From: a virus
IMG/VR virus record: IMGVR_UViG_3300022752_000180
Location: 1 to 38,097 of that record
Length of the DNA: 38,097 bases
Strand: one strand, 5' to 3'
The notes below the pieces were generated by a model. That model was not told the origin of the DNA. It searched no databases and was given only the letters and a program-made list of their open reading frames with translations. Positions 1 to 36,201 of this stretch are shown here, piece by piece (position 1 is the stretch's first letter; every line of letters starts with the position of its first letter). The translations under genes were made by a program, and so were the position numbers.

Positions 1-759
1 CCAAACGATAGGCTTGTTAAGCTTCTTCGCAACCTTGAAAACAATCTCATCACGACGCTTCATTTGTTCGGTTGTAAGAAATCCACCAAGAGGATCATTG
101 ATATGAGGATCTGCACCAGCTTGATAAAAAAGAATTTCACAACCATGAAACTGTGAAATCAAGTCGGCTTCGAGCCGATCAAGCCAAAGATCAAAGTTCA
201 TATTGTTTTTTGCAAACTCACCAAAAGTGAGATGCTCTACAACATTTTCTGCACCCTCTATACTGGCAATAATGTCAACAGTGCCATCACCATAATGCGC
301 ATCAAAATCGATGATTCCAATCTTGTTAACACCATGATTCTGCCACAAAAGCAATGCAGCAATCATAAGACCATTAAAGGTACAAAACCCATGACACCTA
401 TCGTATCCACTATGATGAAAACCGCTTGTAGGGCTCATTGCAACAGTCTTATTTTCCAAAGCATATTCAGCCGCACGGAAGAAACTACCTGCCGTATAAG
501 GCAAGCTAGCAGCCACAGAAGGCAACTTGTTGTTAAACCCATTCACCTTGCGAAGCTTAAGAATATCGTCAACAAACTTAGCATCGTGAGCGATAGAGAT
601 ATCATCTTGGGTAAGAGGCATCCAACCGCTACGAACATCCACCCGTCCAGTCTTTTGAAACTGGTTTACAACATGTTCTGGCTTTCCTGCCGAGGGAGAA
701 AACGAAGTATTGTCACGAACTGTTTGCTTGGGAGAGTAAAAAATCTTAAGATTTGTCAT
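1..759 (-). CDS. Histone-deacetylase-family zinc amidohydrolase (C-terminus cut by window edge)
   Basis: The frame is open from the ATG at 759 to the window edge (253 codons, no stop), so the C-terminus is missing. The ATG follows an AGGA ribosome site. Visible HDAC-fold signatures, in order: a Pro-poor active-site rim SGFHHSG with the His-His pair at 115-116, then HGFCTFNG (123-130); IDFDAHYGDGT (150-160), giving zinc ligands D153 and H155; and AGADPHINDPLGG (214-226), giving the third zinc ligand D217. The catalytic Tyr in the usual GGY motif would lie just past the edge. The family includes acetylpolyamine amidohydrolases, AcuC-like proteins and lysine deacetylases; all remove acyl groups from amines. 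The substrate here cannot be told: polyamine, protein lysine or a modified nucleotide are all possible. It lies downstream of the tail tube gene beyond a terminator, so it is probably transcribed separately. Family assignment is confident; the role is unknown. Confidence 0.88.
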   Translation of the reverse strand, partial: MTNLKIFYSPKQTVRDNTSFSPSAGKPEHVVNQFQKTGRVDVRSGWMPLTQDDISIAHDAKFVDDILKLRKVNGFNNKLPSVAASLPYTAGSFFRAAEYALENKTVAMSPTSGFHHSGYDRCHGFCTFNGLMIAALLLWQNHGVNKIGIIDFDAHYGDGTVDIIASIEGAENVVEHLTFGEFAKNNMNFDLWLDRLEADLISQFHGCEILFYQAGADPHINDPLGGFLTTEQMKRRDEIVFKVAKKLNKPIVW

Positions 760-816
760 TGCTTCCTGTCTTTCTTTACACTCAGAATATCACAAAAACA
801 AGGAAAAATAAAAGAA

Positions 817-850
817 TAAAGGTGTTTTAGCGGTTGCCAAAACACCTTTA
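817..850. terminator. Hairpin terminator after the tail tube gene
   Basis: A perfect 12-bp inverted repeat (817-828 with 839-850) encloses a 10-base loop. On the minus strand it is followed by a T-rich stretch, as expected for intrinsic termination of the leftward tail operon. Confidence 0.85.
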
Positions 851-912
851 TCTTTGAGTGTTTATGTAAGGTAAGACAAGGTTTTTATATACACAGTTAT
901 CGAAATGAACCG

Positions 913-1404
913 TCAGTATTGCATAACACAGTTATCGAAGCGGATTGTGAGAGAGATTTCTGCCATGTCTGCTGTGCTGTCGTATGAGAGATCACCGAAA
1001 CCTGCTGTTGTACAGAAGGCTCCTTTGATATCCCAAAGTTGGATAACTGTACCCACTGGGTCCAGCATCTTGAGTTGAATATCACGCTTGTAAAAGTCTG
1101 GGTAGCCTGCACGGCCAGACACAGATTCAAAGCAAAGACGAATCCATTCCATTACTTGTTGAGCACCGGATGGAGCGATTGGATCGTGAATGGTTACAGA
1201 AAGTGTATTGAATGTAGTTTTACCGGCAACATAACGTGTGCTGTTGATCCAGTTGATTGGTACTTCTTCGGTGGTGATTTCTGGTCTTGCTGCTGTTTTC
1301 ACCAAGAATGCGTCAATGCCTTCAATAGCGAAGACGAACTGACGTTTCATCATTGGTGTAAACTTAGCTGGAAGCATTTCTGTGACTGATAGTGTTTGTG
1401 CCAT
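913..1404 (-). CDS. gp19: Tail tube protein (T4 gp19-like)
   Basis: A 163-aa protein, the same length as T4 gp19, directly downstream of two tail sheath genes, as in T4 (18 then 19). It has the tail-tube pattern: an N-terminal strand region with FVFAIEGIDAFLV, a middle segment EVPINWINSTRYVAGKT comparable to the T4 stretch ending in NRKINVAGDRT, and a C-terminal ISLTIRFDNC strand. Subunits of this family stack as hexameric rings that form the inner tube of the contractile tail and conduct DNA. The start is preceded by TAGGAGT. A candidate late promoter element lies in the 35-base leader, right after the sheath stop. The terminator at 817-850 ends the unit. An antisense frame and a second minus frame over this gene are shadows. 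Confidence 0.93.
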   Translation of the reverse strand: MAQTLSVTEMLPAKFTPMMKRQFVFAIEGIDAFLVKTAARPEITTEEVPINWINSTRYVAGKTTFNTLSVTIHDPIAPSGAQQVMEWIRLCFESVSGRAGYPDFYKRDIQLKMLDPVGTVIQLWDIKGAFCTTAGFGDLSYDSTADMAEISLTIRFDNCVMQY

Positions 1405-1439: not shown

Positions 1440-4400
1440 TCATCCACCAACAAAGTTATTGCGGTTTGTAACAAAGAAGTCGATTGTGAAGAACTCTAGG
1501 GATGTGGTTGGGATTAGGAAAATCTTACCACGCAGAGTTTTGTTGTCCAAATCGGCTTGTGTTGTAGTTGTTGCATCGATTACAACTTTGTATTTTTCTA
1601 CACCACCAGCAGATTGATAACGAGCCATGATTGGTTGAACTGCCGCATTGAATGCGGTAAGTGTTGAAGATTGTGCTGGTTCGAACAAAAAGCGTGTTGC
1701 GACTGCACGAACATCACGACGGATTGCAATCAAAAGTCTTCTTACGTTCACTCTGTTGAGTAAGCTGTCTTTGTTGAGTAGAGTCTTTTGACCCCAAACA
1801 ACTGGTCCAACACCTTGCTTGGAAAGTAGAAGGTTAAGTCTAGCCACGTAAAGGGTGTCAGAGTTGGCTTGATTGAGAGCAACGGCAAAGTCTGTTACGT
1901 TGCTTAGTGTGCCTCTTGTAAAGCCTGCTGGTGCGTTGAATGGTTGACCAACGGTATCATTCTTGGCATATGCACCAAGAACAGCAACGGATGGTGGAAC
2001 CTTTTCATAAACAACACCACTTGGACCAACAATGTTAACATCTGGGAAGTAAGCTGCCGCAAAGCTGCTATTAACTCCACGATCAACGAATGCTTGAGCG
2101 GTTTGTGAAACGTTAACAGTTTCGTATGAACCTGTGATAGATGTACCATTTACATCATATTGTTCTGGGTCCATGATGTAGAAACAATCGAAACGATCAT
2201 TTTCTACAGCGTTGATTGCTGTATCTGTGACGTAACGAACACGGATACCGGGCATTGTTAGAAGTTGAATGTTAACATCGTTTACATCAGAGATGATTCC
2301 AATGCTCTTCATATAGCTTTGAACAGTTGGACCATTTGTTAAGCCACGAGTTGTTTGTGTGATTTCTTGAGATACCGCTGCGTTCTTAAGATAACGTGTA
2401 TCAGCGTCGAATATTCTTACACCGTCGAAACCACGTTCAAGATAGAAGCTGAACTTGGCAAGCGTTTGTACTGCTGCATTTTCTACAAGATCGTTGACAG
2501 ACAATGCTCTTGTTTTTGTTGTGGCGTCGGCAGCAATGCCTCCACCACGAACATAACTCCAGCTTAGTAGTGCTGTTGCACTTGTATCTGGACGATCACC
2601 AGAACCGGTTACAATCTTAACTTTTTCTAGAGAGAAAAGGTTGTTGTTGAAAAGATCTGAGTCGATGATACCGTTTGCTGTGGTTGTAGCTGCACCATCG
2701 TTATCAAACACTGCTGGCTGTACGTTTGTTGAACCTTCGAGATTTGGGAAGTATTTGCTATAACCAAGCAAGCTTGGATTAAAGATCGAGCTTCCATTTG
2801 GATCGGATAGGCTTGTTACGTTTTGGAACTGAACACCCCAGTAAAGTCCTGTATCCACACCAGAAGAAGCAGCAAGTTTCTTAAGGTTCAAACGCATTGG
2901 AACTGGGGGTTGTGATGCTTTATAGAGAGGAACGCCACCACCTGCACCACCAGCGAGGTTTGAGAAGTATGGGAAAGCTGGATTAAGAAGATCACCTTGT
3001 TTAATGTTGTAGAGGGAGCTTGAACCTTGTGTTACAAGGTGTTGTGGTCCACGGAATCCGAATGGAACAGCAGATGGATCTAGATCACCAGCATCTACTG
3101 CATCAGCTACTTCAACACGAACATAACGTGAGTTATTTGCATATGATCCGTCTGTTGTTACTTTTTGTGAAGCAACATCTGTATCGAAGTTGAAGAACGT
3201 GTTAATGGTACCAATCTTACGAGCGATATAGTTTGGTGAAGTTGGATCAAGTGAGCAGTTTGTAAATGTTTCCAAAGCACCGTCACTATCAATACTTGTC
3301 ATTGAACGAACAAGAACTGTAAACACACCGTATGGATTTGTTCCTGTGCCGGGTTGAATGTTGGTGATAGAGATTTTTACATCGCCGTTGCTGGATTCAC
3401 CATCTGAGAGGTGGTGGAAACGAAACAGGTTTTGTGGAACTCCACCGAATCCTTGAGAAATAACCCATGGAGAGAAAGCATGACCATAACGATCTTGAAA
3501 GCCTTCGAAGTTTGGTGTAATAGCTGAACCAACGTTTGATGTGTGAGTTGCTGCTGAACCAGAAGAAGGAACCAAGAATGCGATGTTTTGTTTTGTGCCG
3601 TATGTTGATCCAGAAGCTGTTTCGATTACGCCGGAGCCTGTTGGAACTGCTACTGCCGAATAAACATCGTAGTTTGCATACAGTAGGTGGCCAGCTTGTT
3701 GTGTTTTAAGTGGATCGGTGTTGAATACGCTAGAAAAATAGTTTGCGGCTTGTGGATCAAAGCTTGCTGTGAGTACGTTTGGATAACGCACATCTGTTCC
3801 TTTATGGCCATTTAGAATCATTACAAAGCTTTGGTTACCAGAGCTCAAATCAACAGAGCCAGTAAATGCGCCAGAGAAGCTTGATTCAGTTGCAATAAAG
3901 CTTGAGACTGGGGCATTTGATGGTTGTGCTGCGGAAGATAGACGAAGAACAACTCCAGAAGGAGCAAACAACACACCACGAACGATTGGCACAGCTGTTG
4001 TGTCTGATTGTAGACCAGCATCAGAAAGATAGGTTGAGCCTACTGATTCGCTCATAAAGCAACCAAGCATATACACTGAGCCGGTTACACCTGTAGCATT
4101 TGCAAAAACGTTGTTACCAAGAGCACCAGCACTGCCGCTGGGCTGTTGAGCACCAACAACGAAACCTGCATCTGTAACAGTTCCATTAGCATTTCGAGCT
4201 AAACCTTGCCCAGCACCAAGCACCCTAAGCTGCATAAGAGGAACGCCTGTGTTACCAAACCATTCTCTTGCAGAAAGATATCCTAGTGGTGTGTTGGCAT
4301 TTACTCCACCAAACACTGACACGTATTGACTTAGTGTTGTGGTCATGATTGGAACAAATGCTGGCCCTTTGGTTGTTGTAGAAATAACCAAAGCAGGAAC

Positions 4401-4475
4401 ACCAGATGGTGTTACCGTTGTTGGTTGACTTATATCAAATTCTCTTGCTAGTACGCCGGGGCTTAATAGTGCCAT
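1440..4475 (-). CDS. gp18: Tail sheath protein, paralog A (T4 gp18-like)
   Basis: A 1011-aa contractile tail sheath protein. The N-terminus (LLSPGVLAREFD, then KGPAFVPI) matches the sheath start, and the last roughly 200 residues carry the conserved sheath core: VWGQKTLL, NRVNVRRLLIAIRRDVR, TRFLFEP and a closing beta segment with LEFFTIDFFV. T4 gp18 has 659 residues, so about 350 extra residues sit in the middle, probably surface domains. Sheath subunits wrap the tube as six-start helical rings and contract on infection. The gene sits between paralog B and the tube gene. It has its own leader with GGAG ribosome site and follows a terminator, so it is probably transcribed from its own promoter. 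Confidence 0.95.
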   Translation of the reverse strand: MALLSPGVLAREFDISQPTTVTPSGVPALVISTTTKGPAFVPIMTTTLSQYVSVFGGVNANTPLGYLSAREWFGNTGVPLMQLRVLGAGQGLARNANGTVTDAGFVVGAQQPSGSAGALGNNVFANATGVTGSVYMLGCFMSESVGSTYLSDAGLQSDTTAVPIVRGVLFAPSGVVLRLSSAAQPSNAPVSSFIATESSFSGAFTGSVDLSSGNQSFVMILNGHKGTDVRYPNVLTASFDPQAANYFSSVFNTDPLKTQQAGHLLYANYDVYSAVAVPTGSGVIETASGSTYGTKQNIAFLVPSSGSAATHTSNVGSAITPNFEGFQDRYGHAFSPWVISQGFGGVPQNLFRFHHLSDGESSNGDVKISITNIQPGTGTNPYGVFTVLVRSMTSIDSDGALETFTNCSLDPTSPNYIARKIGTINTFFNFDTDVASQKVTTDGSYANNSRYVRVEVADAVDAGDLDPSAVPFGFRGPQHLVTQGSSSLYNIKQGDLLNPAFPYFSNLAGGAGGGVPLYKASQPPVPMRLNLKKLAASSGVDTGLYWGVQFQNVTSLSDPNGSSIFNPSLLGYSKYFPNLEGSTNVQPAVFDNDGAATTTANGIIDSDLFNNNLFSLEKVKIVTGSGDRPDTSATALLSWSYVRGGGIAADATTKTRALSVNDLVENAAVQTLAKFSFYLERGFDGVRIFDADTRYLKNAAVSQEITQTTRGLTNGPTVQSYMKSIGIISDVNDVNIQLLTMPGIRVRYVTDTAINAVENDRFDCFYIMDPEQYDVNGTSITGSYETVNVSQTAQAFVDRGVNSSFAAAYFPDVNIVGPSGVVYEKVPPSVAVLGAYAKNDTVGQPFNAPAGFTRGTLSNVTDFAVALNQANSDTLYVARLNLLLSKQGVGPVVWGQKTLLNKDSLLNRVNVRRLLIAIRRDVRAVATRFLFEPAQSSTLTAFNAAVQPIMARYQSAGGVEKYKVVIDATTTTQADLDNKTLRGKIFLIPTTSLEFFTIDFFVTNRNNFVGG

Positions 4476-4577: not shown

Positions 4578-7500
4578 TCAAGGAATAGAAACACCTGATG
4601 GAAGAACAACAAAGTCCATTACGACGTACTCGATTGCTCTTGTTGGCAATACTCTGATTTGTGCGTTCATACGGTTGCTGTTAACATCCTCAGAGGTATT
4701 GTTGCGATCATCACAGATAACTGCGAACTGTTCAATGCCTTGTTGAAGTTTGACTGTTGCAAGTACCAAAGATGCTTCACTAACAAAACGTGCACGTAGT
4801 GCTGGAGTGTTTTGTTCAAAGATCAAACGGTTACCGATGGCAACAATCTGACGCTTGACTTCAAGTATCATGCGCTTGACGTTAATGCTTTCCAAAGCAC
4901 TTTCAGCTTGTTGTAGAGTATTTTGCGAGAAGAATACATAGTTGGCACCGGGGAACTTCACGATTGGGTTGATGTTGGCATCGTAAAGCGTGTTGCGATC
5001 TGTTTGGTTGACTCTAATAGATGTTTGAAGAACAAAGTTTAGAGAACCACGATCAAATCCTGCTGGGGCAAACCATGGGAACTTAACACGGTCGTTGTAG
5101 CTTAGTGCAGAGATTGCTGCAACAGAAGCTGGCAAAGTTACACGGCGAGTGTTTACTGTATCATCTATAACAACGCTTGGGAAGTAAGCAGCTGCCCCGT
5201 TGTTATCAAGCGAACGATTGATAAACGAGTTTGTGGTTTTACCAATCGACACGTATCTACTTGTTTCACCATCAAAGATTCGAACGCTATCTTTGTCATA
5301 TGGCTGGATATCCAGAAGATAAAAACTCAAACCGTAGTTTGTGTTTTTCTCTAGAGCATAGTTGGTTACAAGCGGATCACGTTGACCGGGTGTTGCAAGA
5401 ATGTTGTTGTTTGCAATCGTTGGGTTGGTTGCAATGTCAAGTGCTGTACGATATGCAACAACGTTTTGGTTGGCTGCACCAACACCTGTGTAGTTTGTTA
5501 GAGCAGGAGCACCGGGGGAAACATAGCTTGCATTTGCAAGACCATATACACCACCTGCACCAGCTTCTGTAGAAGTTGATTGGTCTGTAAATCTAGCTGC
5601 TTGCTTGTCAAAGATGTTAACACCATCCCAACCACCTTGCATAAATGTTGTGAACTTAGCATAGTTTGAGAAGTTGTTGAACTGTACTGCACTGCCGCTG
5701 TTTAGTAGCGATGCAAAAGTCAAACGATTGCTAAAGTTTGTTGCAACGTATGTGGTTGGATCGATTGTTGCATTGCGAAGATATGCAGCAGACTTCATTA
5801 GTGTTGGTACATCTGTTGAAGCAACTGTTGCCATAGATGTAGCATCCAAAGCAACTCTAGAAAGAGAGAACTTATTGTCATTCAAAATGTCAGAAGCAGA
5901 ACCAGTTGTTAGAACTTCTTGCTTCTCAATGCCAGAGAACTTCGCAAAGTTCGAAATGATTGGGTTTATCTCAGCATTAACGTTTGCGTTTAGCACGTTG
6001 TTGTTGTTACGTTCAAACTTAACACCCCAATACAAACGACCATCGAGCACTGTTTGTGTACCGGGAGCACCAAACGTTGTTCCAGTGCTTGCAAGTGGGT
6101 TACGAGTGATTGTAAAGCGGTATGGAACTGGAGGAACGATAGAGCCGGACAAATCGCAACCACCACCAGCGAGGCTTCCAGAAACACCAGAGATACGTGA
6201 CCGGTTCAATGCTACAGAACCGGTTTGGTCAGTCAATGTTACGTTTGTAAGAAGCATTTGGTGACCACGGAAACCGAATGGAAGAGCTAGTTCTGGTACT
6301 TCGTCACTTTCAAGTTGTGAGCTTGGAACAACACGAATAAATCTGCTGCGGTTACCGTATTTACCAAGTACAACAAGACCACGATCATCTGAATCAATGG
6401 CGTCGAAGTTGAATTGTGTGCGCTTGTCACCGATTGCTCTAATCACATAGTTTGAGTTATTTGGGTCAAGAGAAAGATTATTGAACTGTTCAAGTATTTG
6501 TGGTTCTGCATCTGTGTCGTTGAAAGCTCTTACAGACAAAGTGAACGAACCATATTTGGTTGATGGATTGGTTGACGCTTGAACGTTTGAAATGCTGATC
6601 TTGTATTTGCTGTTAGCAAAAGCACCATCATCACGGCTTTCAACATAGAAAAGATCATATTCGATTCCACCGAAAGGTTGTGAAATAAAGTAAGGTGTTT
6701 TTGGTGTTGTGTAACGTGTGTTAAAGTATCCAAAGGCTTCACCAAAGGTATGGCCAAAAGAGTTGGTGTTGCTTGACCCAGAAAGTACTGCAACAGTTAC
6801 AACTGAGTTGCTAGCTGACAATGCAGCTACTTGTGAGTCAACAGCATAATCAAGATAAAGAAGATGTTTCTTAGCGGCGAAGTCTTCTGGGTTTGTGTTT
6901 AGAATCTTGCCAACGTATTGTGTTGAGCTTGGATCAAGTGAAGCTGAGAAGATCTTGAGGCCAGCCACACCATCATCAGAAGCAAAGCTTGAACCGGCAG
7001 AGCATGACAAAACTAGTTTAAACAAACCTGACATTGGTCCTTCGGTACCAACTTGAGCGGCCTCGTTGGTACCTAATGAGGACAAATAAGCTGTTGGGTT
7101 GAATGTACCACCAGCATCAACCGCACCACTCAAAACAAGAAAGCGTGAGTCTGGGGCTGTGAACAAAACTGCACGAACAAGATTTACGGTGTCGTTGTCT
7201 GCGCTAAAACCACTTACGTTATAGCTGGAGTTATTGGTGAAGTCCGGCATACCAAACACTTCGTTTGTTTGTACTGCGTGTTTACCCACAAGAAACTGCA
7301 CACGTCCTTGAAGAGCCCCAGAAGCGAACACGGTACCATTTCCAACAACTTGCATTCCAGCATTGGTAACAGTGCCTTCTGTTTCTGTTGTTGATATATC
7401 TACTGAGGTGTTGTTTGCACCACATCCAAGAATACGTATATAGTTGACAGATGCAAGTTCACTTCCTTTTGCATCCAAAAATGCTTTGGCTCCATATGAC

Positions 7501-7697
7501 CCAACAAATTTTGGATCTACATCTCCAAACTTATTAGTAAAATCTGTGTAACTTCCAAGAGTTACTGGTACGAATGCTGGCCCTCTTTCAGCGCCACCAA
7601 TAACTGTTGCAGGAGTTCCACCTACAGGAATCGTGCGTTCGGTTAAATCAAACTCACGGTCAAAGTAATTGGGCGCTTTTAATACTGTTTCTGGCAT
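4578..7697 (-). CDS. gp18: Tail sheath protein, paralog B (T4 gp18-like)
   Basis: A 1039-aa second sheath protein. It shares the family start (FDREFDLTE, then RGPAFVPV) and the C-terminal core (VFFSQNTLQQAESALESINV, then RLIFEQN, IEYVVMDFVV) with paralog A, but the two are clearly diverged over most of their length. They also share a middle segment pattern (PFGFRGxQ, RLYWGVKFE or LYWGVQFQ), so the large insert was present before they split. The gene comes first in the order sheath B, sheath A, tube. The start follows GTGAGGATAATAAT. Both copies look intact, with no frameshift or stop. Whether both enter one sheath or one has another role, such as a tail-end ring, cannot be read from sequence. 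Confidence 0.94.
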   Translation of the reverse strand: MPETVLKAPNYFDREFDLTERTIPVGGTPATVIGGAERGPAFVPVTLGSYTDFTNKFGDVDPKFVGSYGAKAFLDAKGSELASVNYIRILGCGANNTSVDISTTETEGTVTNAGMQVVGNGTVFASGALQGRVQFLVGKHAVQTNEVFGMPDFTNNSSYNVSGFSADNDTVNLVRAVLFTAPDSRFLVLSGAVDAGGTFNPTAYLSSLGTNEAAQVGTEGPMSGLFKLVLSCSAGSSFASDDGVAGLKIFSASLDPSSTQYVGKILNTNPEDFAAKKHLLYLDYAVDSQVAALSASNSVVTVAVLSGSSNTNSFGHTFGEAFGYFNTRYTTPKTPYFISQPFGGIEYDLFYVESRDDGAFANSKYKISISNVQASTNPSTKYGSFTLSVRAFNDTDAEPQILEQFNNLSLDPNNSNYVIRAIGDKRTQFNFDAIDSDDRGLVVLGKYGNRSRFIRVVPSSQLESDEVPELALPFGFRGHQMLLTNVTLTDQTGSVALNRSRISGVSGSLAGGGCDLSGSIVPPVPYRFTITRNPLASTGTTFGAPGTQTVLDGRLYWGVKFERNNNNVLNANVNAEINPIISNFAKFSGIEKQEVLTTGSASDILNDNKFSLSRVALDATSMATVASTDVPTLMKSAAYLRNATIDPTTYVATNFSNRLTFASLLNSGSAVQFNNFSNYAKFTTFMQGGWDGVNIFDKQAARFTDQSTSTEAGAGGVYGLANASYVSPGAPALTNYTGVGAANQNVVAYRTALDIATNPTIANNNILATPGQRDPLVTNYALEKNTNYGLSFYLLDIQPYDKDSVRIFDGETSRYVSIGKTTNSFINRSLDNNGAAAYFPSVVIDDTVNTRRVTLPASVAAISALSYNDRVKFPWFAPAGFDRGSLNFVLQTSIRVNQTDRNTLYDANINPIVKFPGANYVFFSQNTLQQAESALESINVKRMILEVKRQIVAIGNRLIFEQNTPALRARFVSEASLVLATVKLQQGIEQFAVICDDRNNTSEDVNSNRMNAQIRVLPTRAIEYVVMDFVVLPSGVSIP

Positions 7698-11075: not shown

Positions 11076-11639
11076 ATGAGCATACACAAACTTAAAAGTC
11101 TCATTAAAGAAACGTTACTTGAAGCAACAGCTAGAACAAGAGATCGATCTCGTCTTCGTTCAAAAACTTTGTATGTGTTTGACTTCGATCATACCATCGC
11201 AAAAACAATCGAAGAAAACATTCGTTTGCCGGATGGTAGAGTTGATTTGCGTGCATTTTCTGGTTTAAGCAAGCAAACAAAACCAAACGGTCGTATATTT
11301 GATTTGTTTGCAGACAACGTTGCTAACAACCCAACAACAACGTTCATTCTCACTGCAAGACCTCCTGCTGTCAAAGAACCTATGTTGGAATGGTTAAGCG
11401 AGCATGGTGTAGATATCGATCCAGAAAATGTTATTTGTTTGGGAAGTAGTGCTGGCAGCAAAAAACGTCAATGGATTAAAGACAAAATCATTGAGCTCAA
11501 CGCAACAAAAGCAATGTTTTGGGATGACAGAGAAAGCAACACAAAAGCTGTTGAGCAACTACAAGATATAAACAAGCATCCCGAAATGGAAAATGTCGAA
11601 GTTGTAGTAACACTAGTACCAAAAAAAGTGAAGCCATGA
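11076..11639 (+). CDS. HAD-family phosphatase with virion-type N-terminus (copy 1)
   Basis: A 187-aa HAD-superfamily protein. Motif I is FDFDHT with D36 and D38; motif II is ILTARPP with T93; a Lys pair at 129-130 can serve as motif III; motif IV is FWDDRE with D150 and D151. All catalytic positions of a phosphatase are present, with no large cap domain. The first 12 residues, MSIHKLKSLIKE, match the N-terminal signature of the small proteins in this window and precede a basic linker (RTRDRSRLRSK). The start follows AGAGG. It overlaps copy 2 by ATGA. Related small HAD proteins include polynucleotide 3'-phosphatases and RNA-repair-like HADs; the substrate is not determined. The N-terminus suggests it may be packaged in the capsid (inference). 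Confidence 0.82.
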   Translation: MSIHKLKSLIKETLLEATARTRDRSRLRSKTLYVFDFDHTIAKTIEENIRLPDGRVDLRAFSGLSKQTKPNGRIFDLFADNVANNPTTTFILTARPPAVKEPMLEWLSEHGVDIDPENVICLGSSAGSKKRQWIKDKIIELNATKAMFWDDRESNTKAVEQLQDINKHPEMENVEVVVTLVPKKVKP

Positions 11640-12307
11640 ACGAAAAGTTGAAAAGCATCATCAAGTCGGTTATTCTGGAAGTTCAAGAAGAACGTTCGAA
11701 ACTTGGTGTTATATCTTCACGCACTGGGTTAAGAACGCTGCGAGTGTTTGACTTTGATGATACCTTAGCCAAAACAAACTCAAGAGTTTGTGTAAGTGAA
11801 TACGATAAAGAAACCGATGCACCTATCGGAGATGAATATGCAATCACTCCAGCAGAGTATGCCACATTCAAAGTTAACGTAGCATCTAAACATCCAGAAA
11901 TTGAATACAAGTATGATTATCGTGAGTTCGCAGAGGTGCGAGATCCAAAAATCATCGATTTCACATTTGCTATTCTTCGTAATGTTGTACGTAAACTAAG
12001 AGAAGAATCAGCGTTCCCAGCAGTTATTCTTACTGCAAGAGGACATGATGCAAACAAAAACATTGCAAACTTCTTACGATCATTTGATATCGATATTCCT
12101 GTGATCACATTATCTGGGTCTGCACCAGAACTAAAAAGCAACTGGATCAAAGAAGCTATGCTAACCAAAGATATTCCACAGATTGAGTTCTTCGATGATA
12201 GCCCTCTCAACGTCGAAGCTGTTGCCAACTTAAACTCTGATGAAGTACTTAAAGCAAGGTTTGGTACAAATCTAAGAGTACGTTCACGTTTGATCAAAGC
12301 ACACTGA
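11636..12307 (+). CDS. HAD-family phosphatase with virion-type N-terminus (copy 2)
   Basis: A 223-aa HAD protein overlapping copy 1 by four bases (ATGA). Motif I is FDFDDT with D39 and D41; motif II ILTARGHD with T133; motif III Lys near K167 (ELKSNWIKE); motif IV FFDDSP with D187 and D188. It is a diverged relative of copy 1 with an insert of about 35 residues between motifs I and II. It starts MNEKLKSIIKSVILEV, a weaker form of the shared N-terminal signature, with a candidate prohead-protease site at ILE rather than IKE. Both copies keep all acidic residues, so both are probably active. It is followed by a strong terminator. Confidence 0.83.
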   Translation: MNEKLKSIIKSVILEVQEERSKLGVISSRTGLRTLRVFDFDDTLAKTNSRVCVSEYDKETDAPIGDEYAITPAEYATFKVNVASKHPEIEYKYDYREFAEVRDPKIIDFTFAILRNVVRKLREESAFPAVILTARGHDANKNIANFLRSFDIDIPVITLSGSAPELKSNWIKEAMLTKDIPQIEFFDDSPLNVEAVANLNSDEVLKARFGTNLRVRSRLIKAH

Positions 12308-12371: not shown

Positions 12372-12677
12372 TCAGCGTCGAGTTTTACGAACTGATGCAG
12401 CTTTAACACCACGTTTATAACCAGCACGAAAAGCTTCGTTAACAGCTTCTGTGTATGGGTTAACATCGATTTCTTTTTCTGGGGTGTTTGCTTCTCTTTC
12501 ACGACGCTCCCGCCCCTTCCGCATCCGATCTTCATAACCCCCTTCATCATCAGCTACATCATAAGAGTCGCCCCAGCGATTGCCGCCAGCACCCCCCCTG
12601 CTGTAGTCGTATTCTTCCAAAGATTCTTCCGCAGCTTCACGGATTAATCTTTTAAGATCTCTTATCTTAATACGCAT
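12372..12677 (-). CDS. Small virion-type protein, paralog of the 12691 gene
   Basis: A 101-aa protein in three parts: the shared N-terminus MRIKIRDLKRLIREAAEES; a Gly-, Tyr- and Arg-rich acidic middle; and a C-terminus with AFRAGYKRGVKAA followed by the basic tail SVRKTRR. The next gene upstream (12691) has the same N- and C-termini with a different middle, so the two arose by duplication. The basic tail could bind DNA; the N-terminus resembles a capsid-targeting peptide with a cleavable IRE site. No catalytic motif is visible. The start follows AAGAGAA. Confidence 0.75.
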   Translation of the reverse strand: MRIKIRDLKRLIREAAEESLEEYDYSRGGAGGNRWGDSYDVADDEGGYEDRMRKGRERREREANTPEKEIDVNPYTEAVNEAFRAGYKRGVKAASVRKTRR

Positions 12678-12690
12678 AGTTTTCTCTTAT

Positions 12691-12897
12691 TCAGCGACGA
12701 ACTTTACGGGTTGTTGCGGCTTTAACGCCACGTTGATAACCAGCACGGAATGCACGGCTCACAGCTTCATGAAGAGCAGCTTCTTCTTCAGCAGCTTCAT
12801 CCATATCCATACCTTCATCTTCTTGTTTCATTTCGTCCATAGCTTCTTCAGCAGCTTCACGAATCAACGCCTTGAGTTGTTTAACTGTAACTTTCAT
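12691..12897 (-). CDS. Small virion-type protein, paralog of the 12372 gene
   Basis: A 68-aa protein starting MKVTVKQLKALIREAAEEA after a strong AAGGAGA site. The middle is Met-, Glu- and Asp-rich, and the C-terminus AFRAGYQRGVKAA plus TTRKVRR is nearly identical to that of the 12372 protein. Only 13 bases separate the genes. The sharp charge split (acidic middle, basic end) and the N-terminus fit an internal capsid protein of the kind that T4 trims during maturation. Function is unknown; the coding call is firm because of paralogy and ribosome site. Confidence 0.78.
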   Translation of the reverse strand: MKVTVKQLKALIREAAEEAMDEMKQEDEGMDMDEAAEEEAALHEAVSRAFRAGYQRGVKAATTRKVRR

Positions 12898-20342: not shown

Positions 20343-20870
20343 TTATTCGAAACTACCTTTTTTAGAACCGGGAAGGTGACCTTCACCACCCGAGCCTCTT
20401 GGTCCACCGGGACGATTTGAGATAGGTGAGTTAAAAGCTAAACGAGCCCATGTAGACGCAGGAGTTTGCTGTGGTTGAGCCATTTGTTGAAGTGCAGCAA
20501 CAGCATTTGGATCTCTTGGAGGTAATGGATTACGTGCTTGTGGAACATAACCAAGAGAAGAAGGAGAAGATATATTTTCTCCAAGCATGTTAAGGTTAAC
20601 TCCAGCTGGGAGAGTCATTCCATTTGGCATAATACCTTGTTGTTGCATTGGAAGCGAAGTAACAGCGGTGTCAGCAAATATTTGTTCCATAATAGGATTG
20701 CCTCCAGCAGCCATTTTGATTCGTGGATCTTGCATAACAGCTTGTTGTTGTAAAACGTTTGAGCGTTCAGCAAGCATTCCACCAACCATATGATCTAATG
20801 CACCTTCAGCAACAAGTTCCTTAAGGCACTCTTTTATAATCGCTTTAAACTCTGTTTTTTGAATCTTCAT
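20343..20870 (-). CDS. Head-block protein with virion-type N-terminus
   Basis: A 175-aa protein starting MKIQKTEFKAIIKECLKEL, a variant of the shared N-terminal signature with an IKE site at residues 12-14. The rest is rich in Met, Gln, Pro and Asn with no obvious domain, and it ends in GSKKGSFE. It sits right after the prohead protease gene, a usual place for core proteins that are packaged and trimmed. A candidate late promoter element lies in its 39-base leader. The Shine-Dalgarno is weak (AAGAAGTAAC). Unknown function; a capsid-internal role is inferred. Confidence 0.72.
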   Translation of the reverse strand: MKIQKTEFKAIIKECLKELVAEGALDHMVGGMLAERSNVLQQQAVMQDPRIKMAAGGNPIMEQIFADTAVTSLPMQQQGIMPNGMTLPAGVNLNMLGENISSPSSLGYVPQARNPLPPRDPNAVAALQQMAQPQQTPASTWARLAFNSPISNRPGGPRGSGGEGHLPGSKKGSFE

Positions 20871-20897
20871 GGTATGTTACTTCTTATTGTTTGATAG

Positions 20898-20906
20898 CGA
20901 TAAATT
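20898..20906 (-). promoter_or_regulatory. Candidate late promoter element before the 20870 gene
   Basis: On the minus strand it reads AATTTATCG, just after the protease stop and about 27 bases before the next ATG. It deviates at the first T of the core. Confidence 0.3.
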
Positions 20907-20909
20907 GTT

Positions 20910-21521
20910 TCAAGGTTTTTTACGAAGAGCTAATATTTCGTTAGCGGCACGATCTACAAGGTCGCTTTTTGTAAACACGGTCTTAACAATGTTTGCATCA
21001 TATTGTTTAGCTTCGGCCATCATGAATGCACCCGGAGTGCTTGGCTCGCTTACAAAGTCCCAGCAAATAATCTGTAGGTCATCTTGAACAACGTTTACAT
21101 TGTTTTCACGTTGCAAAGAACCCAATGCTCTGCTAGAGATTCCCGGTTTGCATTTTGCCTTGATAATAGATTCAATGATTTTACCGCAAGGTGTATCAAG
21201 GATTTCTACCTTGCCATATACAACGTCACCTTCCATCCAGATTTCACGAATAACGTGAGAGATGTTTTTCATGTTGACGATTGGTTCATTGGCATGGTCT
21301 AGTTCACCAAAGGCTCTATTCTCACGAATAAGTTTTTCGTAGTTACGGATTTCACGTTCAAGAATATGACGGGGGTATACACGACCATTTTGGTTTAATG
21401 TGTTAGCTTTTTGAAGAATGCCATTAAGAACAAGTGGTTTACCTTCTTCTCTTTTATCTAGATCTAAATCGTTGTACTCAAAGGCAGTAAACTCTTTGAG
21501 AAGAAACTTTTTGTCGTTCAT
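20910..21521 (-). CDS. gp21: Prohead core protease (T4 gp21-like)
   Basis: A 203-aa serine protease of the T4 gp21 family (T4: 212 aa). The segment RAFGELDHANEP carries the catalytic His (H76), and KPGISSRALGS carries the catalytic Ser (S129 or S130). The N-terminal part with NGRVYPRHILEREI is also typical. The enzyme acts inside the prohead, cutting scaffold, capsid protein and internal proteins after Glu in (L/I)xE contexts before DNA packaging. It overlaps the upstream gene by ATGA (21518-21521), so translation is coupled. It is the probable processing enzyme for the family of proteins with (L/I)I(R/K)E N-termini elsewhere in the window. Confidence 0.96.
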   Translation of the reverse strand: MNDKKFLLKEFTAFEYNDLDLDKREEGKPLVLNGILQKANTLNQNGRVYPRHILEREIRNYEKLIRENRAFGELDHANEPIVNMKNISHVIREIWMEGDVVYGKVEILDTPCGKIIESIIKAKCKPGISSRALGSLQRENNVNVVQDDLQIICWDFVSEPSTPGAFMMAEAKQYDANIVKTVFTKSDLVDRAANEILALRKKP

Positions 21522-28027: not shown

Positions 28028-28560
28028 GCTTTGCTATTGGACAAGTGATTTACGTTCTTAGCGACAAAACTCAAACAGTTTTGCCGGGAATTGTACAAGA
28101 AGAGATTCATCACCGATCCATTGACGGAGAAAAGGTTTCTTACCGTGTTGCTATAGGTCCACAAGGCAAACAACGTGTTGTAGATCTTGCAACCGTTGAT
28201 GGTGAGGTATATGGAGATTTAAACGAAGTAAGAAACGTTTTAATCTCTAGATTAACCGCTTTTGTTGATGATCTTTGCAACACAACAAATGAACGTGTTA
28301 ATCAATGGTATCATAATACTCAAAGATCAGTAGCTTCAACAACAAGTAATGGAAAACTTGATCCAGCAGCATTGATGAATGAAGTTGCTGCACCACAAAC
28401 AAATGGTTATGCAAAAACAGTTATGCCTACCCAACATATTAATGGTGTCAATGGCATTAATGGATTAAGAAGCGCATTAGCTGATCCAGAACTAAACACC
28501 CGTGAATTCATTGATTCGGATGGTACAATCCGTAAGATTTCTATTAACCTTCCAACTTGA
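28024..28560 (+). CDS. Unknown protein upstream of GroEL
   Basis: A 178-aa protein after AAGGATC. The first 80 residues look like a small beta domain (FAIGQVIYVLSDKTQTVLPG, then KVSYRVAIGPQGKQRVVDL), followed by a helix with LISRLTAFVDDLCN. The tail from about 110 is low-complexity, with Asn- and Gly-rich VNGINGL repeats, and ends in IRKISINLPT. It runs directly into GroEL with a TGATG junction. The SH3-like look of the N-terminus is only an impression. Function unknown. Confidence 0.75.
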   Translation: MSFAIGQVIYVLSDKTQTVLPGIVQEEIHHRSIDGEKVSYRVAIGPQGKQRVVDLATVDGEVYGDLNEVRNVLISRLTAFVDDLCNTTNERVNQWYHNTQRSVASTTSNGKLDPAALMNEVAAPQTNGYAKTVMPTQHINGVNGINGLRSALADPELNTREFIDSDGTIRKISINLPT

Positions 28561-30302
28561 TGCATATGAACAAAACAAATCAACCGGTTGCAACCGAGTC
28601 TTCTGTACAAGAAGTTACTTTCGGTCAAGAAGCTCATAACCAACTTTTAGAAGGTGCAGAAATCCTTTATAAAGCTGTTAAATCCACAATGGGTCCAAGT
28701 GGACACAATGTTATTATTGACAACGGTAAAACAGCACCATTAATCACTAAAGATGGTGTTACTGTTGCCAAGAGTATCAATCTACGTTCAAAGCTTCCAA
28801 GTTTAGGAGCGGAACTAATCAAAGAGATTGCCAGCAAAACAAATGAACAAGCTGGAGATGGCACTTCCACTGCCACCGTTCTTGGTTATGCCATGCTTAA
28901 GCAAGGTATCAAAATGACTGCAACAGGACGTTCTGCGATTGAAATCAAACGTGGAATGGAATGGGCAACAGAAAAAGTTATCGCATGGCTTAAGGAACAT
29001 GCTATCCCAGTTCGTAACAACGAAGACATTATCAATATTGGTACAATCTCTGCTAACGGCGATAGATCTATTGGTGTGCTTCTTTCCGAAGCTATTTCTA
29101 GAGTTGGCCAAGATGGTATCATCACCATCGAACCAGCTAAGAGTGTCAAAACAAGCTTGGATGTTGTTGAAGGTATGCAGTTTGATTCTGGATTTGTAAG
29201 TCCGTACTTTGTTACAAATCAAGAAAAAATGACCGCAGAACTCAATGATCCTTACATTCTTATCACTAACAAAAAGCTATCTTCACTACAAGAAATTCTT
29301 CCGGTTTTGGAACTTGCTGCAAATGCTAACAAGCCTTTGTTAATCATTGGTGATGAAATAGAAGGTGAAGCTCTTCACACTCTAATCGTCAACAAAATGA
29401 AAGGTGTTTTATTCACTTGCGCAATCAAAGCTCCAAGTTACGGAGAAAATCGTGTTGATGTTCTTTCTGATATTGCCCTTGTAACAGGTGGCAAAGTATT
29501 TGATGCCAGCTCAGAAAAGTCAATCAAAAATGCAACACTATCAGATCTCGGACAATGTAAGCGAGCAATCATCACTAAGAGCTCAACAACTCTTGTTGGT
29601 GATGACGCTGGCTCACGCAAAGACTTAATCTCTGAACGTGTTGATCAACTAAGAACATTGCTTGCTGCTAATGTTGGTTTAGACGATTTGAAGCGTGAGA
29701 ATACCAAAAAGCGTCTTGCTAAACTTGCTGGGGGTATTGCTGTTATCAAAGTTGGTGGTAGCACCGAAGTAGAAATCTTTGAAAAGAAAGATCGTGTTGA
29801 AGACGCTTTAAATGCCACGATAGCGGCTGTTCAAGAAGGAATCCTTCCCGGTGGTGGTACAGCTCTTTTCTATGCCTCAGAATGGCTACAAAAAGAAATG
29901 GCAGGCCATACCATGACAGAAGATGAACTTGCTGGTGCAAAAGTTATTTATGAAGCTTGCCGTCAACCACTAAGAGTTATTGTTGAGAACACAGGAAAAA
30001 GTTCAGATGTTGTCATGAACCAACTGCGTTCGTATGACAGTGAAAAGCTTGTAAACCTTCTACACGATATTGCTGGTGATACAAACCGTCCAGAAAATCT
30101 CGTTGAAAAGAAAGCAGAAAGCTTGTTAAATAAACGTTTGCGTCAAGGTTACGATGCAAGTCGTCATGTATATTGTGACTTAATCGATCAAGGTATTATA
30201 GATCCACACAAAGTAGAACGCTATGCAATCGAACACGCTTGTTCAGTTGTTGGGTTGCTACTTACAACAAATTGTGTTGTTGTTATAAACAACGAAGGAT
30301 AA
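28560..30302 (+). CDS. groEL: Phage GroEL-type chaperonin
   Basis: A 580-aa group I chaperonin from the ATG at 28560 (ATGs at 28560 and 28566 are both possible; the junction with the previous stop is TGATG). ATP-site motifs are intact: MGPSGHNVII, LITKDGVTVAK with D65, AGDGTSTATVL with D100, RVEDALNATIAAVQEG and LPGGGTALF. The end VVGLLLTTNCVVV matches GroEL, but the GGM-rich tail of bacterial GroEL is absent. Chaperonins fold proteins in a double-ring cage; phage versions are thought to fold capsid or polymerase-like proteins. No GroES is recognisable in the window; phage EL has a chaperonin that works without one, so this is not a defect in itself. The sequence is divergent from host GroEL. 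Confidence 0.95.
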   Translation: MHMNKTNQPVATESSVQEVTFGQEAHNQLLEGAEILYKAVKSTMGPSGHNVIIDNGKTAPLITKDGVTVAKSINLRSKLPSLGAELIKEIASKTNEQAGDGTSTATVLGYAMLKQGIKMTATGRSAIEIKRGMEWATEKVIAWLKEHAIPVRNNEDIINIGTISANGDRSIGVLLSEAISRVGQDGIITIEPAKSVKTSLDVVEGMQFDSGFVSPYFVTNQEKMTAELNDPYILITNKKLSSLQEILPVLELAANANKPLLIIGDEIEGEALHTLIVNKMKGVLFTCAIKAPSYGENRVDVLSDIALVTGGKVFDASSEKSIKNATLSDLGQCKRAIITKSSTTLVGDDAGSRKDLISERVDQLRTLLAANVGLDDLKRENTKKRLAKLAGGIAVIKVGGSTEVEIFEKKDRVEDALNATIAAVQEGILPGGGTALFYASEWLQKEMAGHTMTEDELAGAKVIYEACRQPLRVIVENTGKSSDVVMNQLRSYDSEKLVNLLHDIAGDTNRPENLVEKKAESLLNKRLRQGYDASRHVYCDLIDQGIIDPHKVERYAIEHACSVVGLLLTTNCVVVINNEG

Positions 30303-32303: not shown

Positions 32304-35300
32304 ATGCCCAAGCTAGCGTTTGTGTCTGATATTCATTGGAGAGGTATCACTCGACATGATGAATATACACAAGTTTTTACTGAACTTTTTCGTCAACTAA
32401 AAGAAGAAGTAAAGCCTGACTATATTCTTTGTGGTGGAGATATTTTCCACACTAAAACCATGTCGATTACACCAGAAGTGATTGAAAAAATCACATGGAT
32501 GTTTAATGAGCTTGCTCTTATTGCTCCGGTATACTCTATTCTTGGCAACCATGATGGTAATCTAACCAACGATAATCGTCAAGATACCATTTCTCCGATT
32601 GTTGCCGCTATCAATAATCCAAGAATCGTTTTGTTCAAGAAAAGCGGCAACTGGATTATTCCCAACACAAACATCAACCTATGTGTTTTGTCTTGCTTTG
32701 ATGAAGCTGGATGGAATAACGTTCAGACAGATCATGATCTAATCAACATCGCAATGTTTCACGGCTCTGTAAGAGGTTGTGCAACAGATAGCGAATGGGT
32801 TATGACTCATGGAGAAGCTGAAATCTCTATGTTTGAACGTTTTGACTTTGCTCTTTTGGGAGATATTCACAAGCAACAGTTTCTTGGTTATCGTTCGCAT
32901 GATGGCATCACAAGAGACATGAAGCCTTGGATTGGTTATCCCGGTTCTCTTATCCAGCAGAACTATGGTGAAGATGTTGTTAAAGGTTATCACGTTTGGG
33001 ATATTCGTTCTGCTGATGATTGGGATGTAACCTTTCATCAAGTAGCAAACGATTACCAGTTCATCACAGTGGATTGGAAAGGTGATGTAGCATCTACTGT
33101 ATCAGAAGCTCTCAAGGTTGCAGGTAAAACCTTGCAGCATAAGCGTGTTCGTATTGTGTCAGATCAAACAGTGTTTCATCTTCAAATGAAAGAACTGTAT
33201 GACGAGCTAAAGAACAAGCACAAAGCCAGTGAAGTAGTTTTCAAGGCTGGGAAGAACGAGAACATTAGCGAGAGTGGATCTGACGAAGATACGCACCAAA
33301 AGGCCACCAGCCTTCGTAACTCTCCAGAACTACTTTGTGAGCTCTATGATTCCTTTGTAGAGAAAGATTACAAGATCGCTTTGTCATCTACGCAAAAAGA
33401 TGAAGCAAAGGCATATGTTCAGAAGTCTCTGGAAAAGGTGCGGCAACTGGAAGATGATGTTGCCAGAGATGTTGTGTGGTCTATCAAAGATATCGAATGG
33501 TCTAACCTATATCGTTACGGAGAAGGAAATCGTATTGATTTTTCTAATCTCAATGGTATCACAGGTATCTTTGGTCCAAACAAGGTAGGAAAGAGTTCTA
33601 TTGTTGGTTCTCTTATGTTTGGTCTATTCAACACAACAGACCGAGGACCGGTAAAGAGCTCTTATATCATCAACAAGAATAAGCGTGAAGGTTACGCAAG
33701 AGTAACTATCAACGTATCTGGAACCGATTATGTTGTTGAACGTTCTGTTGCCAAGGCATCAAAGCGTGGCGGTAGATATGATGATGAAAAGGCTGCAACC
33801 AAGCTTTGTTTGTCTCGTCTGGAAAGTGATGGAACAGAAGTAGAACTGGTTTCTGAAAACAGTGAATCCAGAACAGATACCGACAAAGTTGTTCGCAAGC
33901 TTATTGGAACATCACAAGATTTTCTACTTACTGCCTTTTCAAACCAAGGTGGAATGAACCGCTTTATTGATGAAGGTGCAACACAACGCAAAGCTATCCT
34001 TAATCGATTCCTTGACTTGGATATCTTTGAAAAGCTTTACAAGATGGCAAATGAAGAACTCCAAAAGTTCAACACTCTTAGTAGCAAGTTCCGTAACGTA
34101 AACTGGAACGAAGCAAAGAGTGAATGCCAAGCTTCAATCGATTCTTGCAATCAAGATATCTTTGCAGCAAAACAAGATGTTGATAACAAAAAAGAAAGGC
34201 TTGAAAAGCTTCGTGGTTGGTTGCAACGTCATGGTGCGGACAAGCAAGCCGATCTTCGTCGCAAGGTTGCAGAAGCATCTAATAAGTGCGAACGCATTCA
34301 AGGTAAGCTTGCAAATCGTCAAGTAGAACTTGACGGTCATAATGACAGCTGTAATAACTTGCGTGAAAAGCTACAAGAAATCAAGCAGCAACTAGCAAAT
34401 ATGCAGCTTGCGGAACTTGAAGAGAAAGCTGGAAAGCTTAAGAAGCTCGGTGAAAGCTACAACGACCTTAAGGTTGAAGTATCACAAGAACAGCAAAAAC
34501 TAGCTGTTCAAGTAAAGAGTATCAAGAAACTTGATATGGTACCATGTGGTGATAGCTTCCCAACTTGTCACTACATTAAAGATAGTCATGCAGACAAGGC
34601 TACCCACGAAGCTCAAAAGAAGCTTGTTGAAGATATTCTTGCAACGTATGAAACTGTGAAAGCAGACTTTGACGCTCTGCAACAGGAAAAGATTGAAGAG
34701 CAAATCAAAGCATATCGTCGCTGGGAGAAAGAACTAGAAAGCAACGAACAAAAGCTTTCATTTTCCGAAACCTTGATGAAAGGCTGTGTTGATATCATTG
34801 CTTCTCTCCAGCAAGAACTTGAAGCTGCTAAAACAGAACATGTAGCTCTTGTAGAGGAGCTAAACAAGCAAGAGGATCTAGGTGCTAGTATCGAAGAAGA
34901 GCGTGTTCTAGCTGCTGCAATCCGTGACATGGAGAACAAACTTCAACGACTTTACGTCAAACTTGGAGGCTATACCAACAAGCTTGAGCAACTAGTAAAA
35001 GAAGCAGAAGAAGCTGCAAAGATTGTTGAAGAACAAAAGGTATATGATTCCATCGTGCAAGCATTCTCCAAGAATGGTATTCCAGCATATGTTCTAAAAA
35101 ACAAGCTTCCTGAGATCAATGCCGAGCTAAACAATATTCTTGCTGGTATTGTTTCATTCCGTATCTTTCTGGAAACAGAAGTAGGCAGCAACACTCTGGA
35201 TGTGTTTATCGAAGACAAGGACTCTAGAAGGGTTATAGAGCTTGCTAGCGGCATGGAGAAGATGATTGCATCTCTAGCTATTAGAGTAGCTCTAATAAGC

Positions 35301-35516
35301 CTTTCAAGCCTTCCCAAGCCCGATATCTTTATCATCGATGAAAGCTTTGGAGCGTTGGATAGCTCAAACTGTGCAAAGGTTATTGAGTTGTTGCAGACAA
35401 TCAAGAATCGTTTCAAGAGCATCTTGATTATCTCTCACGTTGAAGAGGTAAAAGAAGCTGCAAACAATATCCTAACGATTTATGACAATGGAGTAGAAAG
35501 CAGTGTTAACTGCTGA
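32304..35516 (+). CDS. Fused Mre11-Rad50 recombination nuclease (T4 gp47 + gp46 in one chain)
   Basis: A 1070-aa protein after GGAGAAATAAACTT. Residues 1 to about 350 form the calcineurin-like nuclease of gp47/Mre11/SbcD: SDIHW (D9, H11), GGDIF (D46), GNHD (81-84), MFHG (H153) and GDIH (187-190). From about 400 comes a Rad50/gp46/SbcC ATPase: Walker A GPNKVGKS (424-431), two long coiled-coil arms around a hook with C748 and C755 (PCGDSFPTC, spacing C-x6-C rather than CxxC), the signature ASGMEK (981-986), and Walker B IFIIDES (1008-1014). In T4 the two are separate proteins that resect DNA ends for recombination-dependent replication. The linker (about 340-400) is helical and charged. Both halves keep their catalytic residues. 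Confidence 0.95.
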   Translation: MPKLAFVSDIHWRGITRHDEYTQVFTELFRQLKEEVKPDYILCGGDIFHTKTMSITPEVIEKITWMFNELALIAPVYSILGNHDGNLTNDNRQDTISPIVAAINNPRIVLFKKSGNWIIPNTNINLCVLSCFDEAGWNNVQTDHDLINIAMFHGSVRGCATDSEWVMTHGEAEISMFERFDFALLGDIHKQQFLGYRSHDGITRDMKPWIGYPGSLIQQNYGEDVVKGYHVWDIRSADDWDVTFHQVANDYQFITVDWKGDVASTVSEALKVAGKTLQHKRVRIVSDQTVFHLQMKELYDELKNKHKASEVVFKAGKNENISESGSDEDTHQKATSLRNSPELLCELYDSFVEKDYKIALSSTQKDEAKAYVQKSLEKVRQLEDDVARDVVWSIKDIEWSNLYRYGEGNRIDFSNLNGITGIFGPNKVGKSSIVGSLMFGLFNTTDRGPVKSSYIINKNKREGYARVTINVSGTDYVVERSVAKASKRGGRYDDEKAATKLCLSRLESDGTEVELVSENSESRTDTDKVVRKLIGTSQDFLLTAFSNQGGMNRFIDEGATQRKAILNRFLDLDIFEKLYKMANEELQKFNTLSSKFRNVNWNEAKSECQASIDSCNQDIFAAKQDVDNKKERLEKLRGWLQRHGADKQADLRRKVAEASNKCERIQGKLANRQVELDGHNDSCNNLREKLQEIKQQLANMQLAELEEKAGKLKKLGESYNDLKVEVSQEQQKLAVQVKSIKKLDMVPCGDSFPTCHYIKDSHADKATHEAQKKLVEDILATYETVKADFDALQQEKIEEQIKAYRRWEKELESNEQKLSFSETLMKGCVDIIASLQQELEAAKTEHVALVEELNKQEDLGASIEEERVLAAAIRDMENKLQRLYVKLGGYTNKLEQLVKEAEEAAKIVEEQKVYDSIVQAFSKNGIPAYVLKNKLPEINAELNNILAGIVSFRIFLETEVGSNTLDVFIEDKDSRRVIELASGMEKMIASLAIRVALISLSSLPKPDIFIIDESFGALDSSNCAKVIELLQTIKNRFKSILIISHVEEVKEAANNILTIYDNGVESSVNC

Positions 35517-35575: not shown

Positions 35576-36154
35576 TCAGTCTTCTTCTTTTTTAGCTTTT
35601 CTCTTGCTTTTCTTTCCAAGTGCTTTAAAGTCTGCTCCAGTAAGCTTACCGAAAGGTGGAGCTTTGTCAAGTTTCTTTTGATCACCTTTTAGTTCTTCTT
35701 CTTCTTCCTTGATTGCTTCACGAACAGCTTTTTTGATTGACTCTGCAAGGCGTCTACCCATACCACTCTTCATTGGAAGATTTTCCAAATCTTCTCCTTC
35801 ATAACCCATCGCAGCAAGTTCAGCTTTTGCCTTATCTGCTTCTTCACGTTCTTTTTGAAGTTCTTTAAAGAATTCTTCTTCTTCTTTAGCTTCTTGAGCT
35901 CTTGCTTTGATTTCTTCAGCGTAATGTTGCTCTAAGTGCTCGATCATAGCTGCAAGTTCATCTTCTGACACTTCATCCATTCTAAGCCAACGTGGACGAA
36001 TGTTGTACATCTCTTTGTACATATCACTGTAAAGTTGAAACAAATCTTCCTTTTTTGATGGAAGATTTTCTGCTTGACGTTCTAAATCCATTGGATCGAT
36101 ATCTTCTACAGTTTCACGAATAAGTTGTTTGAGTTGTTTTACAGTAATACGCAT
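35576..36154 (-). CDS. Virion-type charged protein
   Basis: A 192-aa protein starting MRITVKQLKQLIRETVED. The rest is highly charged: DLERQAENLPSKKEDLFQL, a long Glu- and Lys-rich helix from about 95 to 130 (with EEEEFFKELQKEREEADKAK) and a second IKE-containing helix near 140-150 (LAESIKKAVREAIKEEEEEL). It ends in a basic KKSKRKAKKEED tail. This looks like a coiled, DNA-associated or core protein. A second (L/I)xE site sits in the late helix. The start follows CAAGGAG. No family is recognised. Confidence 0.75.
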   Translation of the reverse strand: MRITVKQLKQLIRETVEDIDPMDLERQAENLPSKKEDLFQLYSDMYKEMYNIRPRWLRMDEVSEDELAAMIEHLEQHYAEEIKARAQEAKEEEEFFKELQKEREEADKAKAELAAMGYEGEDLENLPMKSGMGRRLAESIKKAVREAIKEEEEELKGDQKKLDKAPPFGKLTGADFKALGKKSKRKAKKEED

Positions 36155-36201
36155 TGTATGCTCCTTGCTATCCTTGATATATATATATCTAGTATCTTTT
36201 T

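Follow-up and report, generated by a model that had tools for sequence, protein, structure and literature searches.

Why should a bacteriophage carry a histone deacetylase (HDAC)-like amidohydrolase beside its tail genes, and which bond would such an enzyme cut? The window analyzed here, which spans an entire IMG/VR virus record (38,097 bases, with a linear classification), raises this question with its first 759 positions, where the original prediction had placed an enzyme of this kind and called it unusual cargo for a phage. In cells, the deacylation of proteins and small molecules by zinc HDACs is well studied. The phage enzymes are seemingly uncharacterized to date as far as the papers searched show, and paywalled reports could exist. 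For phages, we found one annotation only and, in open-licence PMC papers, no study of a phage HDAC or of an HDAC together with PurZ; the Z-DNA paper PMC12884076 is without HDAC terms, and PMC7824862 holds sirtuin references only.

The deacetylase frame and its active site

The predicted frame proved to be real. It lies on the minus strand (the original prediction had given no strand), starts with an ATG at position 759, and leaves the contig at position 1. A Pfam profile search matched it to PF00850 (Hist_deacetyl) at 6.7e-27 (95 bits, cut-off of 27.9), and since a second, C-terminal Hist_deacetyl piece matches in the same frame, the match is far beyond chance. The zinc ligands D153, H155, and D217, the last within AGADPHINDPLGG, and the dyad H115-H116 are intact, and these residues, like the GFCTFNG segment (G124 to G130), were located exactly where they had been predicted. 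Moreover, the zinc ligands and the His dyad are invariant across all alignable family members. The catalytic tyrosine, Y259 (in GGY), falls past the window edge and is present in every full-length relative, including that of L003 (L numbers denote HDAC loci on other contigs). Thus, the full gene and its tyrosine could be supplied from relatives, but the window copy itself stops at residue 253. Those near relatives are 285 to 289 aa long and end in NLAGGYQ, which holds the catalytic tyrosine, followed by a helix; on viral contigs, identity to the window protein was 91% (L003), 84% (L004), 83% (L016), 77% (L017), and 58% (L007). The phage is therefore predicted to encode an HDAC-like amidohydrolase whose active site is intact, and it appears to be a large-genome bacterial virus with a complete-looking HDAC-fold zinc enzyme.

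Pairwise comparison of the window copy with six relatives gave dN/dS values of 0.10 to 0.18, indicating that selection acts on the HDAC protein. When the window is compared with L003, identity is 98.8% in the tube gene; within the HDAC gene (positions 1 to 759 of the window and 10001 to 10759 of L003), it is 98 to 100% over the initial 180 nt, just 72 to 85% over nucleotides 361 to 660, and 100% over the last compared bases, a mosaic that looks like recombination inside the gene. In the 595-kb phage LR756511 (L011, 5947 to 6857), the HDAC frame is split by an apparent frameshift into two overlapping ORFs, due to either sequencing error or decay.

Gene setting and spread among phages

As seen in Table 1, the HDAC gene adjoins late tail genes, as had been foreseen, and the tube gene and two sheath genes were confirmed. 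The tandem paralogous sheaths are unusually large (1011 and 1039 aa), and this is kept in relatives. Further phage contigs, including two of 241 and 260 kb, repeat the sheath-sheath-tube-HDAC order, which upholds the phage origin of the gene against a chimeric contig. Downstream of HDAC, the relatives carry a small HNH gene, which at several loci begins before HDAC has ended, and then more phage genes; a chimera with bacterial genes to the left of position 1 was ruled out, since relatives have phage genes on both sides. The tail-linked loci, including the window, form one clade with a support of 93 in a quick tree. The tail setting thus holds for the window but is confined to this clade, and others adjoin nucleotide genes.

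Table 1. Positions of the window features considered in this work
Feature	Position	Strand	Remark
HDAC-superfamily amidohydrolase gene, residues 1-253	1..759	minus	3' end outside window; full length about 285 aa
AGGA, ribosome-binding-site-like, ahead of HDAC ATG	764..767	minus	from sequence
Extended -10 promoter-like TGATATTCT	784..792	minus	24 nt ahead of HDAC ATG
Terminator-like hairpin, 17-bp stem and T-rich tail	815..852	minus	between tube and HDAC
Tail tube protein	913..1404	minus	upstream neighbor of HDAC, conserved
Tail sheath protein	1440..4475	minus	conserved neighbor
Second, paralogous tail sheath protein	4578..7697	minus	conserved neighbor
N-terminal-motif protein (example)	11076..12307	plus	
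N-terminal-motif protein (example)	12372..12897	minus	
N-terminal-motif protein (example)	20343..21521	minus	
GroEL-type chaperonin	28557..30302	plus	PF00118, 3.1e-61
Nuclease-ATPase frame	32304..35516	plus	SbcD-like nuclease and SbcC-like SMC ATPase domains, 1070 aa
N-terminal-motif protein (example)	35576..36714	minus	
N-terminal-motif protein (example)	37699..38022	minus	

The interval between the tube and HDAC genes is empty in some relatives; in others, it contains either one HNH-like gene or two genes of other kinds. Since its content differs among loci, it constitutes a variable slot. Hairpins similar to that of the window were found in this interval at L003, L004, L005, L006, L016, and L019. 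A -10 motif (TGNTA[TG]NNT) lies 20 to 28 nt before the ATG at 12 of 15 tail-clade HDAC loci, compared with a shuffled mean of 0.7, although these loci are mutually related and do not represent 15 independent observations; the same motif occurs no more than 60 nt from the start in 3 of 26 other window genes. From the hairpin and the recurring -10 element, we infer that HDAC is not simply a member of the tail operon and is a separately transcribed, moron-like accessory gene, probably read by the host RNA polymerase apart from that operon. Elsewhere in the window, a GroEL-type chaperonin is encoded, and a single frame joining nuclease and SMC ATPase domains is predicted to yield a fused Mre11-Rad50-type protein.

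The description of the gene as unusual phage cargo holds for GenBank phages, among which only 6 of 50,697 sequence records (5 distinct sequences) carry the family, but not for environmental phages, in which an IMG/VR profile scan gave 291 matching stretches on about 290 contigs. Two of the six GenBank records belong to Rhodococcus phage E3, whose gp202 is the sole annotated family member among them; the others come from uncultured phages of 595 kb, 636 kb, and 735 kb, the largest of which has two records. When grouped at 90% identity, the sequences from the IMG/VR profile scans and a purZ scan formed 133 groups, including a few from cells; relatives with cellular neighbors came from Planctomycetota and Verrucomicrobiota assemblies (MAGs). 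No model matching the HDAC protein was found in PHROG, NCBIfam, or PADLOC.

Fold, enzyme class, and candidate substrates

Modeled with AlphaFold (mean pLDDT of 96, pTM of 0.93), the L004 protein was most similar in the PDB to Leptospira HDAC11 (9gz5) and Vibrio cholerae HdaH (9gky/9gkv), with TM scores of 0.83 to 0.84 and a Foldseek E value of 3.8e-18 against 9gz5. The family profile gave the same picture, scoring 147 bits for 9gkv and 124 bits for 9gz5 versus 62 to 74 bits for single-domain HDAC6, HDAC2, and acetylpolyamine amidohydrolase (APAH) chains. In a library of viral structures, only giant-virus HDACs and one uncharacterized Caudovirales fragment resembled the model well. RPPxHH foot-pocket motifs mark robust deacetylases and bacterial polyamine deacetylases, and GGGxHH marks long-chain deacylases (PMC11532494). 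In the window clade, the motif reads TSGFHH, and elsewhere in the family it reads A(T/S)QGFHH or LSSGLHH; being neither RPPxHH nor GGGxHH, TSGFHH does not allow the acyl preference to be read from the motif. The gatekeeper segment of the window is DPLGG, with leucine as in lysine deacylases, and the family has mostly Leu or Tyr. Based on the profile and the model, the window enzyme is predicted to be closest to the class IV (HDAC11-like, bacterial "cluster 5") deacylases, and since the class IV foot-pocket motif GGGxHH/SGGYHH is missing from the HDAC family clades aligned, it was filed as class IV-like and not as a member of class IV.

We tentatively propose, at a little under an even chance, that this moron-like gene encodes a small (about 285 aa) zinc amidohydrolase with the arginase/deacetylase fold, closest to class IV, which removes acyl groups from lysine so that DNA-precursor synthesis stays active. 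Following the established superfamily mechanism, Zn2+ held by D153, H155, and D217 would act with Y259 to polarize the amide carbonyl, and the H115/H116 pair would activate water, leading to cleavage of the amide and release of the acyl group. The target would be acyl-lysine on host or phage proteins, favored because its closest known enzymes deacylate lysine and because the window has the gatekeeper leucine; the benefit, continued DNA-precursor synthesis, is proposed because the relatives repeatedly adjoin nucleotide-metabolism genes. Among the roles suggested originally, lysine deacylation appears to fit the fold best, as judged by profile and Foldseek, and a nucleotide role draws its support from gene context, namely the purZ loci and the density of nucleotide genes. 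Counting against acyl-lysine, a phage-encoded GNAT acetyltransferase is found in a minority of the records only (6 to 7 of 22).

In one clade of 25 sequences, wherever the contig extends so far, HDAC belongs to a 2-aminoadenine (Z) genome operon, dpoZ-purZ-mazZ-datZ, and comes right behind its DatZ-like HD phosphohydrolase gene. One such locus, L009, clears the NCBIfam cut-offs for PurZ (343 bits, cut-off of 300) and DpoZ (774 bits, cut-off of 500). Of 46 purZ loci whose contigs continue for 6 kb or more downstream, 37 have HDAC directly after the DatZ-like gene and 9 are without it, a ratio biased upward because the query of the purZ scan came from an HDAC-bearing phage. ThyX abuts HDAC in two lineages, with HDAC downstream in one and upstream in the other, and two lineages have a class II ribonucleotide reductase (RNR) gene no farther than about 2 kb away. 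Per kb-side of HDAC flank, nucleotide genes numbered 0.17 within 2 kb, 0.04 at 2 to 4 kb, 0.02 at 4 to 6 kb, and 0.005 at 6 to 8 kb; the families counted were chosen after being seen near HDAC, the loci are related to one another, and clustering is common among early phage genes anyway, so that this enrichment is no more than suggestive. A protein of about 411 aa follows HDAC in 25 of 25 Z-clade representatives (L009, L098-L150); one was tested, with no Pfam match, and it would be a second uncharacterized gene of Z operons.

Because of these neighborhoods, the main rival is a small-molecule amidohydrolase that takes an acyl or amide group off a nucleotide or its precursor and thereby helps to make or clean the dNTP pool, also in Z phages, which we consider rather unlikely. 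To our knowledge, HDAC is not among the Z-pathway enzymes, and no known pathway step requires a deacylase. Chemically, such a role would have precedents, since dimethoate and propanil hydrolases of the same fold cleave nonprotein amides (PMC11532494). Nevertheless, the PurZ/MazZ/DatZ triad is reported to suffice for Z-DNA in phage S-2L (PMC8342488), which, together with the nine HDAC-less loci, argues that HDAC is not essential to the Z pathway. Moreover, the window clade sits by tail genes, and its only nucleotide neighbor is PurA, found 5 to 8 kb past HDAC on the opposite strand in several tail-clade phages. This is an ordinary adenylosuccinate synthetase (L004, 17527 to 18672, minus strand; L007, 15621 to 16790, minus strand); it was rejected as PurZ, as it passes the PurA equivalog cut-off and reaches 150 bits where 300 are required for PurZ. 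In the window, a fragment of 38,097 nt, neither PurZ nor DatZ was seen. For the family as a whole, it is possible, though short of likely, that a large, hitherto unrecognized group of phage class IV-like deacylases serves DNA-precursor metabolism, also as an accessory enzyme of the 2-aminoadenine pathway, either by turning on nucleotide enzymes through their deacylation or by hydrolyzing a nucleotide-linked amide.

Polyamines matter to phages, and the release of acetylpolyamines had also been suggested as a role. As an APAH (cluster 4), the enzyme would release spermidine or putrescine, which could then condense DNA or serve translation. Imitervirales giant viruses offer a precedent, as their APAHs belong to the same superfamily and are active in vitro (PMC9992855). 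Polyamine enzymes are marked by an extended L2 loop, associated with a head-to-head dimer, and by a gatekeeper motif that is PIS or, in HDAC10, PEG (PMC11532494). Neither RPPxHH nor a PIS/PEG gatekeeper is present in the window protein, which has TSGFHH and DPLGG instead; at about 285 aa, versus about 341 to 353 aa for APAHs, the protein is probably too short for an extended L2 dimer loop, and the L004 model has no low-confidence insert. The profile score for APAH is also less than half of that for V. cholerae HdaH, AdoMet decarboxylase occurs in 1 of 22 records, and virus APAH homologs have been reported from Imitervirales only (PMC9992855). The motif tests and the gene content thus disfavor polyamine release, and we regard it as improbable. 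Similarly improbable, in our estimate, is a counter-defense enzyme that deacylates a host defense protein, a toxin target, or an acylation-using signal. Consistent with such a role, HDAC seems to be an accessory gene: it has a promoter-like element of its own, occurs patchily among unrelated phages, lies in a variable slot with homing-type HNH genes, and shows signs of mosaic recombination; nevertheless, PADLOC holds no matching model, and no defense gene was recognized among the recurring HDAC neighbors.

The tube-HDAC order at 15 related loci could also mean that the enzyme belongs to the virion or takes part in tail assembly, with tail proteins or the host surface as its target. Consistent with this, the 735-kb phage has a sheath-like ORF (no Pfam match) 2.4 kb downstream of HDAC, and gp202 of E3 lies two genes ahead of a virion structural gene. 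However, the hairpin and the promoter-like element part HDAC from the tube gene, and most other clades are not beside tail genes. The pattern [LI][IL][RK][ES] occurs among the first 28 residues of nine of the 39 window proteins, versus a mean of 0.7 and a maximum of 3 in controls, and most of these nine start with a similar basic peptide, e.g., MRITVKQLKxLIREA. T4 internal proteins carry a capsid-targeting peptide that is cut by the prohead protease, and the shared peptide of the window proteins may be of this kind; it is not present in HDAC. We therefore hold a virion role to be very improbable. Finally, a host-derived or misassembled gene, functionless in the phage, would fit the cellular relatives in Planctomycetota and Verrucomicrobiota MAGs but is scarcely credible given the low dN/dS, the phage genes on both sides at L004, L007, and L017-L019, and a gene order shared by independent contigs from different samples, as a chimera would be required on every contig.

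Significance and relation to known systems

The family comprises more than 100 distinct sequences from environmental phages and, wherever dN/dS was measured, is under purifying selection, which suggests that phages benefit during infection from removing some acyl or amide group. The HDAC-fold family would thus be a common yet unstudied viral trick, often placed beside genes for DNA building blocks, and the ThyX, RNR, and Z-genome genes adjoining it are concrete partners that can be tested. As Rhodococcus phage E3 is a cultured phage on record with a relative, the question is open to experiment. Among viruses, polyamine deacetylases are known and have been tested in giant viruses (PMC9992855).

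Compared with known systems, the Z-genome operon dpoZ-purZ-mazZ-datZ is related through the one HDAC clade located directly downstream of datZ, but the relatives of the window have an ordinary PurA and the window shows no Z operon. The APAHs of Imitervirales giant viruses and bacteria share the superfamily and its zinc chemistry and can likewise be virus encoded (PMC9992855), whereas the window family is without RPPxHH and PIS, appears too short to accommodate the L2 polyamine-specificity loop, and has a weak profile score. The "putative histone deacetylase" gp202 of E3 is of the same superfamily, phage encoded, and the same in its catalytic motifs; nevertheless, it is about 34% identical, belongs to the other large branch of the tree, and has no adjoining recognized sheath or tube genes. 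Class IV, represented by V. cholerae HdaH, which is a lysine de-decanoylase (PMC11532494), Leptospira HDAC11, and human HDAC11, differs in that the phage family is only 23 to 24% identical to it and shorter, with TSGFHH in place of SGGYHH/GGGFHH and CTFNG in place of CxFND. What the phage family has in common with class IV is the whole catalytic set, the GGY tyrosine, an xGFHH-like foot pocket without the RPP proline pair, and, in many members, the gatekeeper leucine.
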